Origin: Cryomorphaceae bacterium
GTDB taxonomy: Bacteria > Bacteroidota > Bacteroidia > Flavobacteriales > ECT2AJA-044
Length of the DNA: 64,000 nt
NCBI GenBank assembly: GCA_017798125.1
Contig: CP059070.1
Location: 806,001 to 870,000, forward strand
Direction: 5' to 3'
Made by a program: the position numbers and the translations under genes. Numbering within the stretch: the first letter of the stretch is position 1; every line of letters starts with the position of its first letter. The notes under the pieces are model-generated. The model had not been told where the DNA came from, did no database searches, and saw only the letters and a program-made list of their open reading frames with translations. This document shows positions 9,777 to 12,786 of this stretch, one piece after another.

Positions 9777-10468
9777 ACTTTGAAGACAAAGCCTACGCCG
9801 TGCACGTTGTCGATCTTCACGGCTTTTTCGGGCTTGAGGTATTTACGCAATCGCGAGATGAAGACATCGAGGGAACGCCCCAAGAAGTAATCGTCATCGC
9901 CCCAAATCTTCAATAAGATCTCATCGCGCTTGAGGACCTTGTTGGTGTTGGTGCAGAAGTAGTGCAGAAGTTGAGCTTCTTTCTGGGTCAGCTTTTGTTT
10001 CTCAGCCCCATCGGTCAAGGTGTACGTTTCGTAGTCGAAGTGAAAACGACCCAAGGTAAATTGCTTTTGATCGGCTTCAGTTGGCTCGTTGTACTTACTG
10101 CGGCGCAGGAAGATTTCAATCTTCAAGATGAGCTCTTCAATGCTAAAGGGCTTGGTCAGGTAATCATCTGCACCGGTTCGCAATCCGGCCAGACGATCTT
10201 CCTTCATGCTCTTGGCCGTTAAGAAAATGATCGGAATGTCTTCATTGACCTTGCGAATTTGCTCTGCCAGGGCAAAACCATCCATTTTCGGCATCATCAC
10301 ATCCAGCAAGCAAAGGTCGTATCCGCCTTTTTGGAAGCACTCCAAACCCGCCTCCCCGTCGGGGCAATGCGTGACTTGAAAGCCGTGCTTTTCCAAGTTG
10401 TCCTTGGTCACAAAGCTGAGGTTGATGTCATCTTCTACGTAGAGAATGTGTGCGCCGGAGTAGCTCAT
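9773..10468 (-). CDS. OmpR-family response regulator
   Basis: A 231-residue DNA-binding response regulator. The N-terminal receiver has the acidic pair Asp13/Asp14, phospho-acceptor Asp56 (LLDVMMP), Thr84 and Lys86. The C-terminal winged helix (about residues 135-231) contains the LTQKEAQLLHYF and SLDVFISRLRKYL motifs. The start overlaps the cognate kinase stop by 4 nt (ATGA), so the kinase-regulator pair is translationally coupled. The stop overlaps the stop of the convergent hydrolase gene. OmpR/PhoB-type regulators bind direct repeats spaced about 11 bp; such repeats lie upstream of the kinase gene. Confidence 0.95.
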   Translation of the reverse strand: MSYSGAHILYVEDDINLSFVTKDNLEKHGFQVTHCPDGEAGLECFQKGGYDLCLLDVMMPKMDGFALAEQIRKVNEDIPIIFLTAKSMKEDRLAGLRTGADDYLTKPFSIEELILKIEIFLRRSKYNEPTEADQKQFTLGRFHFDYETYTLTDGAEKQKLTQKEAQLLHYFCTNTNKVLKRDEILLKIWGDDDYFLGRSLDVFISRLRKYLKPEKAVKIDNVHGVGFVFKV

Positions 10469-11742
10469 AGGTTTGATTTGGCGTGGGGAATCAGCAAGGT
10501 AAATTCACTGCCAACTCCTTCAGTGCTTTCGCAATTCAGTTTCCATTTATGGGCCGATGCAATGTTCTTCACATAGTGCAGCCCAAGTCCAAACCCTTTC
10601 ACGTCATGTACATTACCGGTCGGGACCCGATAAAATTTATGGAAAATCTTGTTCAGCTGATCAGGCGCCATTCCAATGCCCGTATCCTTGATGGACACCC
10701 GGAGTAGTTTGTCGTCATCAGAAGTCCGAACACAAATGTCCACCTGGTCCTTGCTGTACTTCACGGCGTTATCCAACAGGTTCCAAACGACGTTGATGAA
10801 ATGCGTTCGATCAGCCTCAATAAACCGGCGCGTAGCTCGGAGATCGGACGTAATCTTGGCATCCGTCCCGTAACTCTTGAGATTTATTTTGTGGACAGCA
10901 GTTTCCAAAACTTCGTGAACGTCTAACCACTCCTTGCGCAGGCTCAGCTCTTCCTTTTCACTCTTGGCGACCTGAAGGACTTTTTCCACCTGAGTATTCA
11001 GACGCTGCGCTTCATCGGCAATGATGTTCGCATAGCTCTTCAGGCGCTCCGGCTCATCCTTGATCTCATCTTCACTGAGTACACGGCTCGATATAGCAAT
11101 CGTACTGATCGGTGTCTTAAACTCGTGGGTCATGTTGTTGATGAAGTCCCGCTGAACTTCACTCAATCGACGCTGGCGTAGAATGATGAAAATGGAATAG
11201 CTGAAGAAGATGGTAGCAATAAAGACGAGCAGGGTGGTAAAGGTCCAAGGCCCCAAGCTCGCGCGCAGGTACTGATTCTTGGTGGGGAAGCGAACCCCGA
11301 AATAATACAAGTACTCTTTGGACTTCGGCATGTCTACCGTTGCGACGGGCTGCTCTTCGGCGACACTTCCTTCCGGTTTGCACGCCACCATTTGATCCGA
11401 GGCACAGTCGTAAATCGCGTACTCAAATTCGATTTCAATATGCTGATAGTCCAGCTCCTTGCTCAAGTAATACTCTAGGACCTCTTCGTTGATGAAGTCT
11501 TGTACGTTCACTACAAAGTAATCCTGACCCATCTGGCGGACCGGATTCTCGCGGTTGGGCACATGCCCGTTGTATTCCGCCAATTGGTGCGAAACAATGG
11601 TCAGCGCCTCGTTCACCTTTTGATTGAATTCACGCTCCTCAAAGGCATAAGCCTTCTGCACCCAATAGACTTGAGCGGAGATGATTCCGATGATCGAAAG
11701 CGCTCCCAAGAGCACCACCATTTGTATCTGACGACTTTTCAC
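10465..11742 (-). CDS. sensor histidine kinase, Bacteroidota RprX-like type
   Basis: A 425-residue membrane kinase. It has an N-terminal transmembrane segment (about residues 8-28), a periplasmic sensor region of ~140 residues, and a second membrane helix (FTTLLVFIATIFFSYSIFII). The dimerisation/phosphoacceptor box follows with His206 in NNMTHEFKTPI, a form common in Bacteroidota. The ATPase domain shows the N box (NLLDNAVKYS), DTGIGM and GFGLGLHY. No HAMP domain is evident. It phosphorylates the downstream OmpR-type regulator, with which it overlaps. The signal sensed is unknown. Confidence 0.93.
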   Translation of the reverse strand: MKSRQIQMVVLLGALSIIGIISAQVYWVQKAYAFEEREFNQKVNEALTIVSHQLAEYNGHVPNRENPVRQMGQDYFVVNVQDFINEEVLEYYLSKELDYQHIEIEFEYAIYDCASDQMVACKPEGSVAEEQPVATVDMPKSKEYLYYFGVRFPTKNQYLRASLGPWTFTTLLVFIATIFFSYSIFIILRQRRLSEVQRDFINNMTHEFKTPISTIAISSRVLSEDEIKDEPERLKSYANIIADEAQRLNTQVEKVLQVAKSEKEELSLRKEWLDVHEVLETAVHKINLKSYGTDAKITSDLRATRRFIEADRTHFINVVWNLLDNAVKYSKDQVDICVRTSDDDKLLRVSIKDTGIGMAPDQLNKIFHKFYRVPTGNVHDVKGFGLGLHYVKNIASAHKWKLNCESTEGVGSEFTLLIPHAKSNL

Positions 11743-11872: not shown

Positions 11873-12298
11873 ATGAAGAAGTTTTCACTCTTACTCCTAA
11901 CGTTGACCTTTGGCCTAATGGCCATGTCTTTTGCGCCTCACGGCGCGATGAGCAATGTGCTCGGCCTTTCTGGTGCTTCACTCAAAGCTGAAGATGGCCC
12001 TATGAATTGGGAACGCACCTCGCATGATTTTGGCGTCATCGAACAAGACGCGCCAGTTTCCTACGACTTTGTCTTTACCAATGAATCGGGTCAAGCCATG
12101 ATCATCACCAAAGTAAAGCCCAGCTGTGGTTGTACAGCCACTAATTATCCAGAAGCACCGATTCAACCCGGAGAATCTGCGAGCATTACCTGTACGTATA
12201 ACGCCAAGGCCATGGGCAAGTTTCGCAAATCCATCGTAGTAAACACCAATGTGAACTACGGAGAAGCGGTACTCTACATTTCGGGCGAAGTGAAATAA
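11873..12298 (+). CDS. DUF1573 domain protein, exported
   Basis: A 141-residue protein with an N-terminal signal peptide (about residues 1-20). The DUF1573 domain (about 45-141) shows the family hallmarks HDFGVI, YDFVFTN, KPSCGCT and a C-terminal VNTN...YISGEVK strand. These are Ig-like domains widespread in Bacteroidota, of unknown molecular role. The gene is divergent from the two-component system; direct-repeat boxes and a good -7 element suggest control by that regulator. A palindromic element encodes the FAPHGAM stretch between the signal peptide and the domain. Confidence 0.9.
   Translation: MKKFSLLLLTLTFGLMAMSFAPHGAMSNVLGLSGASLKAEDGPMNWERTSHDFGVIEQDAPVSYDFVFTNESGQAMIITKVKPSCGCTATNYPEAPIQPGESASITCTYNAKAMGKFRKSIVVNTNVNYGEAVLYISGEVK
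11933..11949 (+). repeat. palindromic GAT element
   Basis: Stem GCGCC/GGCGC, loop TCAC, trailer GAT, T-rich 5' flank. It encodes APHGAM after the signal peptide of the DUF1573 protein. Confidence 0.6.
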
Positions 12299-12306
12299 TT
12301 ATTTGT

Positions 12307-12344
12307 AATAGTATTGCTATTATAAAAGTATTGTTATACTTTTA
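12307..12344 (+). other. AT-rich hairpins after the DUF1573 gene
   Basis: Two consecutive inverted repeats: AATAG (12307-12311) / CTATT (12317-12321), and TAAAAGTA (12323-12330) / TACTTTTA (12337-12344). The segment is far more AT-rich than its surroundings. It may be the 3' processing end of the DUF1573 mRNA or a promoter region for the structured RNA that follows. Confidence 0.35.
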
Positions 12345-12349
12345 CACCA

Positions 12350-12490
12350 GAATCTTCAACTACAATTAGTTGTTTCCTCTCTTCCGGCTTACTCATGGCC
12401 GACAACTACACAAGAAGATTCACTCATGAGTACTACTAGGTTTGGTTGAAAAAGTCCTCGGATAGCTCAGTTCCGGGGACTTTCTTTTTT
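12350..12490 (+). ncRNA. candidate structured RNA (leader or small RNA)
   Basis: Nested perfect stems: GAATCTTC (12350-12357) / GAAGATTC (12414-12421), TAGTTGT (12367-12373) / ACAACTA (12402-12408), and CGGC (12385-12388) / GCCG (12398-12401). The apical loop TACTCATG (12390-12397) is exactly complementary to CATGAGTA (12425-12432), so a pseudoknot is possible. AGTTG (12368-12372) can instead pair with CAACT upstream (12357-12361), giving a mutually exclusive fold. A strong terminator ends the element 11 nt before the acetyltransferase ATG. It resembles no RNA family I recognise; it could be a riboswitch-like leader or an independent small RNA. Confidence 0.4.
12451..12490 (+). terminator. 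Rho-independent terminator
   Basis: An 11-bp stem AAAGTCCTCGG (12451-12461) / CCGGGGACTTT (12473-12483) with one G-U wobble, then a T-rich tail. It stands between the structured RNA candidate and the acetyltransferase start at 12502. Confidence 0.85.
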
Positions 12491-12501
12491 ACATTCGACT
12501 C

Positions 12502-12786
12502 ATGGAATTAAAGAATGAATTCGACGGTCGAAAAGGCGCCTACTACTTCGATCAAGACGGTCAGCGTATGGGAGAATCCACCTATACCATGGCCGGACCA
12601 GACAAGCTGATCATCGACCACACCGAGGTGGATGACAGTTTGCAAGGCACAGGGAAGGCGGCACAATTGGTCCAAGCCATTGTTGACCACGCTCGAGAAA
12701 ACCAATTGAAAATCATGCCCTTGTGCCCCTTTGCTCGACTGATGTTCGACAAGAAAGGGGAGGAGTGGGCAGATGTGCGCTTCTGA
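12502..12786 (+). CDS. small GNAT N-acetyltransferase (YidJ/Gcn5-related)
   Basis: A 94-residue single-domain protein of the minimal GNAT type. The acetyl-CoA-binding segment is DDSLQGTGKAAQLVQAIVDH, followed by LKIMPLCPFARLMFDKK; the LCPF motif with its cysteine is typical of this small family. Substrate unknown. The start lies 11 nt after the T-run of a terminator, so expression depends either on readthrough/antitermination or on a promoter hidden in the terminator region. The haem-binding gene follows 2 nt after the stop. Confidence 0.85.
   Translation: MELKNEFDGRKGAYYFDQDGQRMGESTYTMAGPDKLIIDHTEVDDSLQGTGKAAQLVQAIVDHARENQLKIMPLCPFARLMFDKKGEEWADVRF

Follow-up and report, generated by a model that had tools for sequence, protein, structure and literature searches.

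A candidate pseudoknotted small RNA of one flavobacterial genus with a conserved block complementary to the dnaA leader

What does the structured intergenic stretch between the gene of a DUF1573 protein and that of a small GNAT acetyltransferase encode in a Cryomorphaceae bacterium (GCA_017798125.1, contig CP059070.1)? The stretch lies in a window of 64,000 nt, the whole piece of DNA that was analyzed, and a preliminary description had proposed a riboswitch-like or trans-acting RNA at positions 12350-12490. The source genome (G000) is a single contig of 2.84 Mb. Our sample of the order comprises 395 genomes, in which the family of G000 has one other member, G001, of the same genus; all comparison of the RNA rests on these two sequences. 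The orthologous interval in G001 (L035:2180-2410) carries the parts of the RNA in identical order. The GNAT gene (12502-12786) is followed by a gene for a haem-binding protein. The genes and structural elements are as follows.

11873-12298, + strand: upstream gene, DUF1573 protein (PF07610)
12349-12490, + strand: proposed sRNA of ~142 nt, delimited by a promoter-like box, a conserved pseudoknot and a terminator
12350-12357 / 12414-12421, + strand: outer stem, GAATCTTC / GAAGATTC, exact match; absent from G001
12357-12361 / 12368-12372, + strand: hairpin 1, CAACT / AGTTG; in G001 CAATT-GAAA-AGTTG, with one C-G to U-G change
12368-12373 / 12402-12407, + strand: middle stem, AGTTGT / ACAACT, which excludes hairpin 1; not found in G001
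12385-12388 / 12398-12401, + strand: hairpin 2 (inner stem, pseudoknot stem S1), CGGC / GCCG, with a compensatory change
12390-12397, + strand: 5' strand of pseudoknot stem S2, the apical loop TACTCATG, with two compensatory changes
12425-12432, + strand: 3' strand of S2, CATGAGTA, complementary to the loop TACTCATG over 8 nt
12432-12444, + strand: conserved block ACTACTAGGTTTG, the proposed seed, identical in G001 and an exact complement of the dnaA leader
12450-12490, + strand: intrinsic terminator, 12-bp stem (12451-12462 / 12472-12483), 9-nt loop and T run to 12490
12502-12786, + strand: downstream gene, small GNAT (Acetyltransf_CG, PF14542)

Exact matching placed the stems, the 8-nt loop complementarity, the second partner of AGTTG (CAACT, 12357-12361) and the terminator where the preliminary description had put them. 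The three nested stems are thus present in G000, whereas only the inner one has a counterpart in G001, where it reads CGGU/ACCG and is lengthened to 8 bp; the outer and middle stems have none. Seven base pairs of S2 (12391-12397) are retained in G001 as GCCCATG / CATGGGC. The base of the terminator, AAAGTCC/GGACTTT, also occurs in G001, with a weaker T tract. An automated scan reported no terminator here, as it accepts loops of at most 8 nt and the one in question has 9. Eleven nucleotides lie between the end of the T run at 12490 and the GNAT start codon at 12502.

Folding of positions 12340-12500 gave -41.7 kcal/mol (z -3.76; 1 of 200 shuffles equally good). Much of this significance is owed to the terminator, since positions 12348-12446, which exclude it, are not significant when folded by themselves (z -1.03; 27 of 200 shuffles equally good). 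A hairpin with a loop pseudoknot of at least 8 nt within 60 nt arose in 67 of 20,000 dinucleotide shuffles. Comparison with G001 was more telling. The pseudoknot segment is identical at 25 of 52 aligned positions (48%), and all 11 pairs are kept (4/4 in hairpin 2 and 7/7 in the pseudoknot), three of them through compensatory double changes: C-G to U-A in hairpin 2, and A-U to G-C and U-A to C-G in the pseudoknot. Unconstrained simulations reached 11 pairs with three double changes in 35 of 200,000 runs at equal divergence and in 27 of 200,000 at a lower divergence of the paired columns. Control partners slid along the sequence pair at 25-40% of positions, compared with 100% for the true partners. 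The alignment that we used (A4, MAFFT on a shorter segment) contains a misplaced gap that loses one pseudoknot pair, and alignments A1-A3 misplace the block; a count made on A4 itself gave 10 pairs and two double changes, a result reached by 129 of 500 row shuffles, which is uninformative with two sequences. The covariation expected among relatives is therefore found in G001 for the inner hairpin and the pseudoknot; the outer stem is missing there. We judge the structure to be real because these two elements covary, and we give this conservation more weight than the fold energy. On this comparative evidence, the earlier observation of a pseudoknotted structured RNA holds. Although about half of the rest of the RNA has diverged, the 13-nt block ACTACTAGGTTTG is identical in the two genomes.

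The structure was said to match no recognized family, and a search of the window with Rfam release 15 (4227 models) agrees: there were no matches at the gathering cut-off, nor any at E<=10. The best scores below the cut-off were SpR08, with 20.8 of 80 bits on the other strand, and His_leader, with 18.5 of 49. 6S RNA (RF00013) had no match in G000. A model built from the G000 and G001 sequences (R1) found the RNA in 2 of the 395 genomes of the order, namely G000 and G001. Another match, in G228 (26.4 bits; E 0.003 x 395), lacks both the block and the pseudoknot and was set aside as chance. The pattern CCATG..CATGG..CTACTAGG, run over the 395 genomes, recovered the true copy in G001 and two chance, coding-like matches (L096 and L098) without the surrounding parts. 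Viral contigs searched for the block together with the terminator base yielded none. The preliminary description had suggested searching upstream of homologous GNAT and haem-protein genes; this link is not conserved outside the genus, with R1 matching 0 of 88 GNAT loci (28 from the genome search and 60 named records) besides the window and its G001 orthologue. Ten genomes from the nearest families (f5, f8 and f15), with 21 DUF1573 loci, yielded nothing convincing. Within the searched material the RNA is thus confined to one genus, as the true matches of R1 are limited to G000 and G001. The divergent pair formed by the DUF1573 gene and a histidine kinase gene (10465-11742, - strand) persists in another family (L193 and L194); in both loci the order of kinase and DUF1573 genes is retained, a different gene comes next and no copy of the RNA was detected.

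When R1 was run on 20 stretches of G000 (400 kb), the sole match up to E 1 was the antisense strand of the dnaA leader (15 bits, E 0.8). This dnaA gene was identified from a 476-residue stretch (Bac_DnaA E 3.5e-65). The complement of the block, CAAACCTAGTAGT, lies at -26 to -14 from the dnaA ATG in G000 and is exact over 13 nt; with G-U pairs the duplex reaches 18 bp. In G001, the dnaA leader has CAAACCTAGTA at nearly equal distance, which leaves 11 nt of complementarity and a shorter duplex of 11 bp plus one A-U pair. The block is thus complementary to an mRNA encoded elsewhere over 13 nt in one genome and 11 nt in the other. A search with CTACTAGGTTTG at <=1 mismatch gave one exact and four one-mismatch non-self places in G000, the sole exact extra copy being the one antisense to the dnaA leader. 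In G001, the dnaA leader is one of three one-mismatch places, and the other exact copy lies on the sense strand of a coding region. Among the five non-self sites of G000 and the four of G001, dnaA is the only one common to both genomes.

Core duplex energies likewise ranked dnaA first, among 353 leaders in G000 (-18.3; next -11.7) and among 194 in G001 (-14.7; next -11.3), in samples that are partly non-random, as stretches holding dnaA were deliberately included. With a longer seed (12422-12452), dnaA was again first of 344 in G000. It fell to 10th of 194 in G001 when the longer seed of that genome, pseudoknot strand included, was used, and to 119th of 344 when the whole G000 RNA up to the terminator served as the query. 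The leader of a histidine kinase gene in the window ranked second of 344 with the long seed and was rejected as a target, since it did not reach the top six when the G001 seed was used. An exact complement of a random intergenic 13-mer occurred among 350 leaders in 56 of 20,000 draws (0.28%), which we scale to a chance of ~2% over all leaders of ~2,500 genes. The dnaA match alone is therefore not decisive. Of the 30 dnaA loci of the order that we collected (L132-L161), 29 were usable, L152 being set aside for a misplaced start, and two of these, G000 and G001, have the block in the leader; the dnaA leader is well conserved between these two genomes in any case.

The site in the dnaA leader is probably transcribed, since each of the two dnaA start codons is preceded by a YAHHTTTG box, at distances of 87 and 86 nt. 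A transcription start at TAGTTTTT, beside the site, is disfavored because -7 boxes hardly ever carry G at the corresponding positions (PMC6847099), and the box at -87 is the better one. In many families, a YAHHTTTG-like box (often cacATTTGtc) stands ~80-100 nt 5' of dnaA, and a box of this kind is present somewhere in the 130 nt preceding the gene in 25 of the 30 leaders.

Our tentatively favored interpretation is that the locus is an independent sRNA gene of one flavobacterial genus whose seed pairs with dnaA mRNA and lowers its expression, and whose transcription is controlled through a palindrome described below. The covarying pseudoknot, the conserved block, its complementarity and the shared palindrome can be read directly from the DNA. 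To these, the interpretation adds transcription, pairing in the cell, the direction of the effect, and the regulator with its signal, all of which we infer. The fold of the RNA would comprise a hairpin at the 5' end, an H-type pseudoknot (S1 of 4 bp, S2 of 7-8 bp) and the terminator, with the block ACUACUAGGUUUG between pseudoknot and terminator acting as the seed. The seed would pair with dnaA mRNA 14-26 nt 5' of the AUG, and this pairing would lower the translation or stability of the mRNA.

A somewhat unlikely alternative is a real small RNA of the same structure that does not target dnaA, its block instead pairing elsewhere or holding the fold together. The ~2% chance of some 13-nt leader match per genome leaves room for this reading, as does a one-mismatch leader site before a FixP-type cbb3 oxidase gene in G000; against it, dnaA alone is common to both genomes among the non-self sites with at most one mismatch. 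The site at the oxidase gene, CAAACCTACTAG (G000:C1:1071340-1071351; L127), differs from the block's complement at a single position and stops 2 nt short of the start codon of the FixP-type subunit. This gene is a possible second target, judged by complementarity, and no such site appears in G001 at one mismatch or less.

The promoter region bears on whether the RNA is a gene of its own. Flavobacterial promoters carry TTTG / TAHHTTTG motifs, the box spanning -12 to -5 (PMC6847099 and PMC9723704). Three features around the RNA are relevant.

12307-12321, + strand: palindrome AATAGTATTGCTATT, arms AATAG/CTATT, a putative operator overlapping the -33 region (TTG 12314-12316); identical in G001
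12337-12344, + strand: -7-like box TACTTTTA, of the TAHHTTTG type except for its last base, 20 nt downstream of TTG 12314-12316 (sequence and the consensus in PMC6847099)
12490-12497, + strand: putative weak -7-like box TACATTCG just 5' of the GNAT ATG, with TATCTTCG in G001, from sequence comparison

In the matching position, G001 has TTG-N19-TACATTTA where G000 has TTG-N20-TACTTTTA, and the final G of the box is missing from both. The box at 12337-12344 predicts a +1 at 12349, one base 5' of the start first proposed. With its 5' end set in this way, the interval 12349-12490 is best read as a free-standing sRNA gene of ~142 nt, with a promoter-like box and a terminator identified from sequence alone. 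The putative box TACATTCG could make the GNAT mRNA leaderless or nearly so, starting right after the terminator. The RNA could instead lack its own promoter and form the end of the DUF1573 mRNA, as 3' untranslated region and terminator, possibly processed to an sRNA. This reading has the shared strand in its favor, and no terminator is seen between 12298 and 12349. However, the TTG and -7-like elements of both genomes, and a conservation of the pseudoknot that exceeds the needs of a terminator, make it improbable.

The fold allows more than one form. Crude energies, in which the pseudoknot penalty is assumed to be 7 to 9.6, are -38.6 to -41.2 for the pseudoknot and -41.2 for the nested form in G000, and -43.2 to -45.8 and -44.6, respectively, in G001. 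Because these energies are close, a switch between the two forms is possible in these models. In both species, part of the block is paired in the nested folds that disrupt the pseudoknot, but through unrelated sequences. In the pseudoknot form, the block would lie directly 3' of S2 and be at least partly free.

The least probable reading is a cis-acting leader, a riboswitch or attenuator of the GNAT-haem pair whose competing folds would determine whether transcription stops 11 nt short of the ATG: the terminator does stand immediately 5' of that codon, there are mutually exclusive pairings, and the pseudoknot and nested forms are nearly equal in crude energy, but the terminator hairpin is present in every predicted whole-RNA fold with no antiterminator seen, no Rfam riboswitch matches, the 88 GNAT loci outside the genus lack the RNA, restriction to one genus would be unusual for a metabolite aptamer, and the reading frame MADNYTRRFTHEYY (12395-12439, 14 aa) is not retained in G001, where it differs after a 4-nt indel, so that there is no conserved leader peptide.

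Of the two kinds of RNA named in the preliminary description, the structure, pseudoknot and terminator common to both stand, and the trans-acting kind fits better than the riboswitch-like one because of the promoter-like box, the RNA's own terminator, its restriction to the genus, the empty GNAT loci and the block antisense to dnaA.

The palindrome occurs with at most one mismatch at four places in G000 and four in G001. Three sites are orthologous (this RNA, sbtA and an ABC exporter), and one in each genome is single (icd in G000, an MCP-like gene in G001). The sites other than that of the RNA in G000 are at G000:C1:1342369, 2103615 and 2678230, and those in G001 include C2:28301, C3:52554 and C42:6037. 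With at most two mismatches on both strands, there are 15 sites in G000 and 9 in G001, compared with 3 and 6 for a reversed control, the former counts being inflated because palindromic sites are counted on both strands. The sbtA gene was assigned by its match to Sbt_1 (E 1.7e-112); a P-II-like gene then follows, and a carbonic anhydrase gene adjoins. The palindromes abut or neighbor -7-like boxes, as putative repressor sites might. The motif AATAGTAttRCTATT thus marks a small putative regulon of this RNA, sbtA-sbtB, the ABC exporter, icd and the MCP-like gene. A literature search with two forms of the palindrome returned, in the text available, only yeast cohesin and a pneumococcal RNA, neither apparently related.

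A regulator binding AATAGTAttRCTATT would set transcription of the sRNA, through a site in common with sbtA (bicarbonate uptake), the ABC exporter and isocitrate dehydrogenase. Since the palindrome is common to these genes, replication could slow with carbon or energy state. That one regulator of sbtA-sbtB, icd and the exporter also switches an RNA pairing just 5' of the dnaA start, joining a bicarbonate and TCA regulon to replication, is a doubtful proposition; if true, it would amount to an sRNA brake on the Bacteroidota chromosome replication, set by inorganic-carbon or energy state.

To our knowledge, little has been worked out on how Bacteroidota small RNAs act on mRNAs. A full-text literature search, covering few subscription journals, found no paper on a Bacteroidetes sRNA acting on dnaA mRNA. 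If the proposal is true, pairing 14 nt before the dnaA start would be one mode of sRNA action in Bacteroidota, and replication initiation would be under post-transcriptional control in this phylum. As described in the accessible sections of PMC6847099, Bacteroidota have no Shine-Dalgarno sequences to block, and structure around the start codon tunes translation. In such a setting, pairing at 14-26 nt 5' of the AUG would hinder initiation.

The closest likeness by target is EcpR1 of Sinorhizobium meliloti (PMC4414408), presented in that report as a trans-encoded sRNA that binds dnaA mRNA through a conserved motif, close to where the ribosome binding site and the start codon lie, with a proposed role in cell-cycle modulation under detrimental conditions. 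Unlike the RNA studied here, EcpR1 is there alphaproteobacterial, has several targets (gcrA and dnaA) and carries its seed in a GC-rich hairpin loop; ours is from Bacteroidota, is pseudoknotted and has its proposed seed 3' of the pseudoknot, so the two are likened by target only, with no claim of common ancestry. Rfp18 and other independent transcripts of Flavobacterium psychrophilum (PMC9723704), compared by description only and from part of that report, are likewise structured flavobacterial sRNAs with predicted mRNA targets, and the sigma-A promoters of that group use a TAnnTTTG box; Rfp18, however, acts on metalloproteases, with predicted pairing through its third stem-loop. Trans-encoded sRNAs of Bacteroides thetaiotaomicron, likened by description only from the accessible part of PMC7366714, belong to the same phylum and come from different hosts.

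A separate observation concerns the composition of G000: in the 20 stretches and the window, CTAG is strongly depleted, with 551 occurrences observed against ~1812 expected from base composition.
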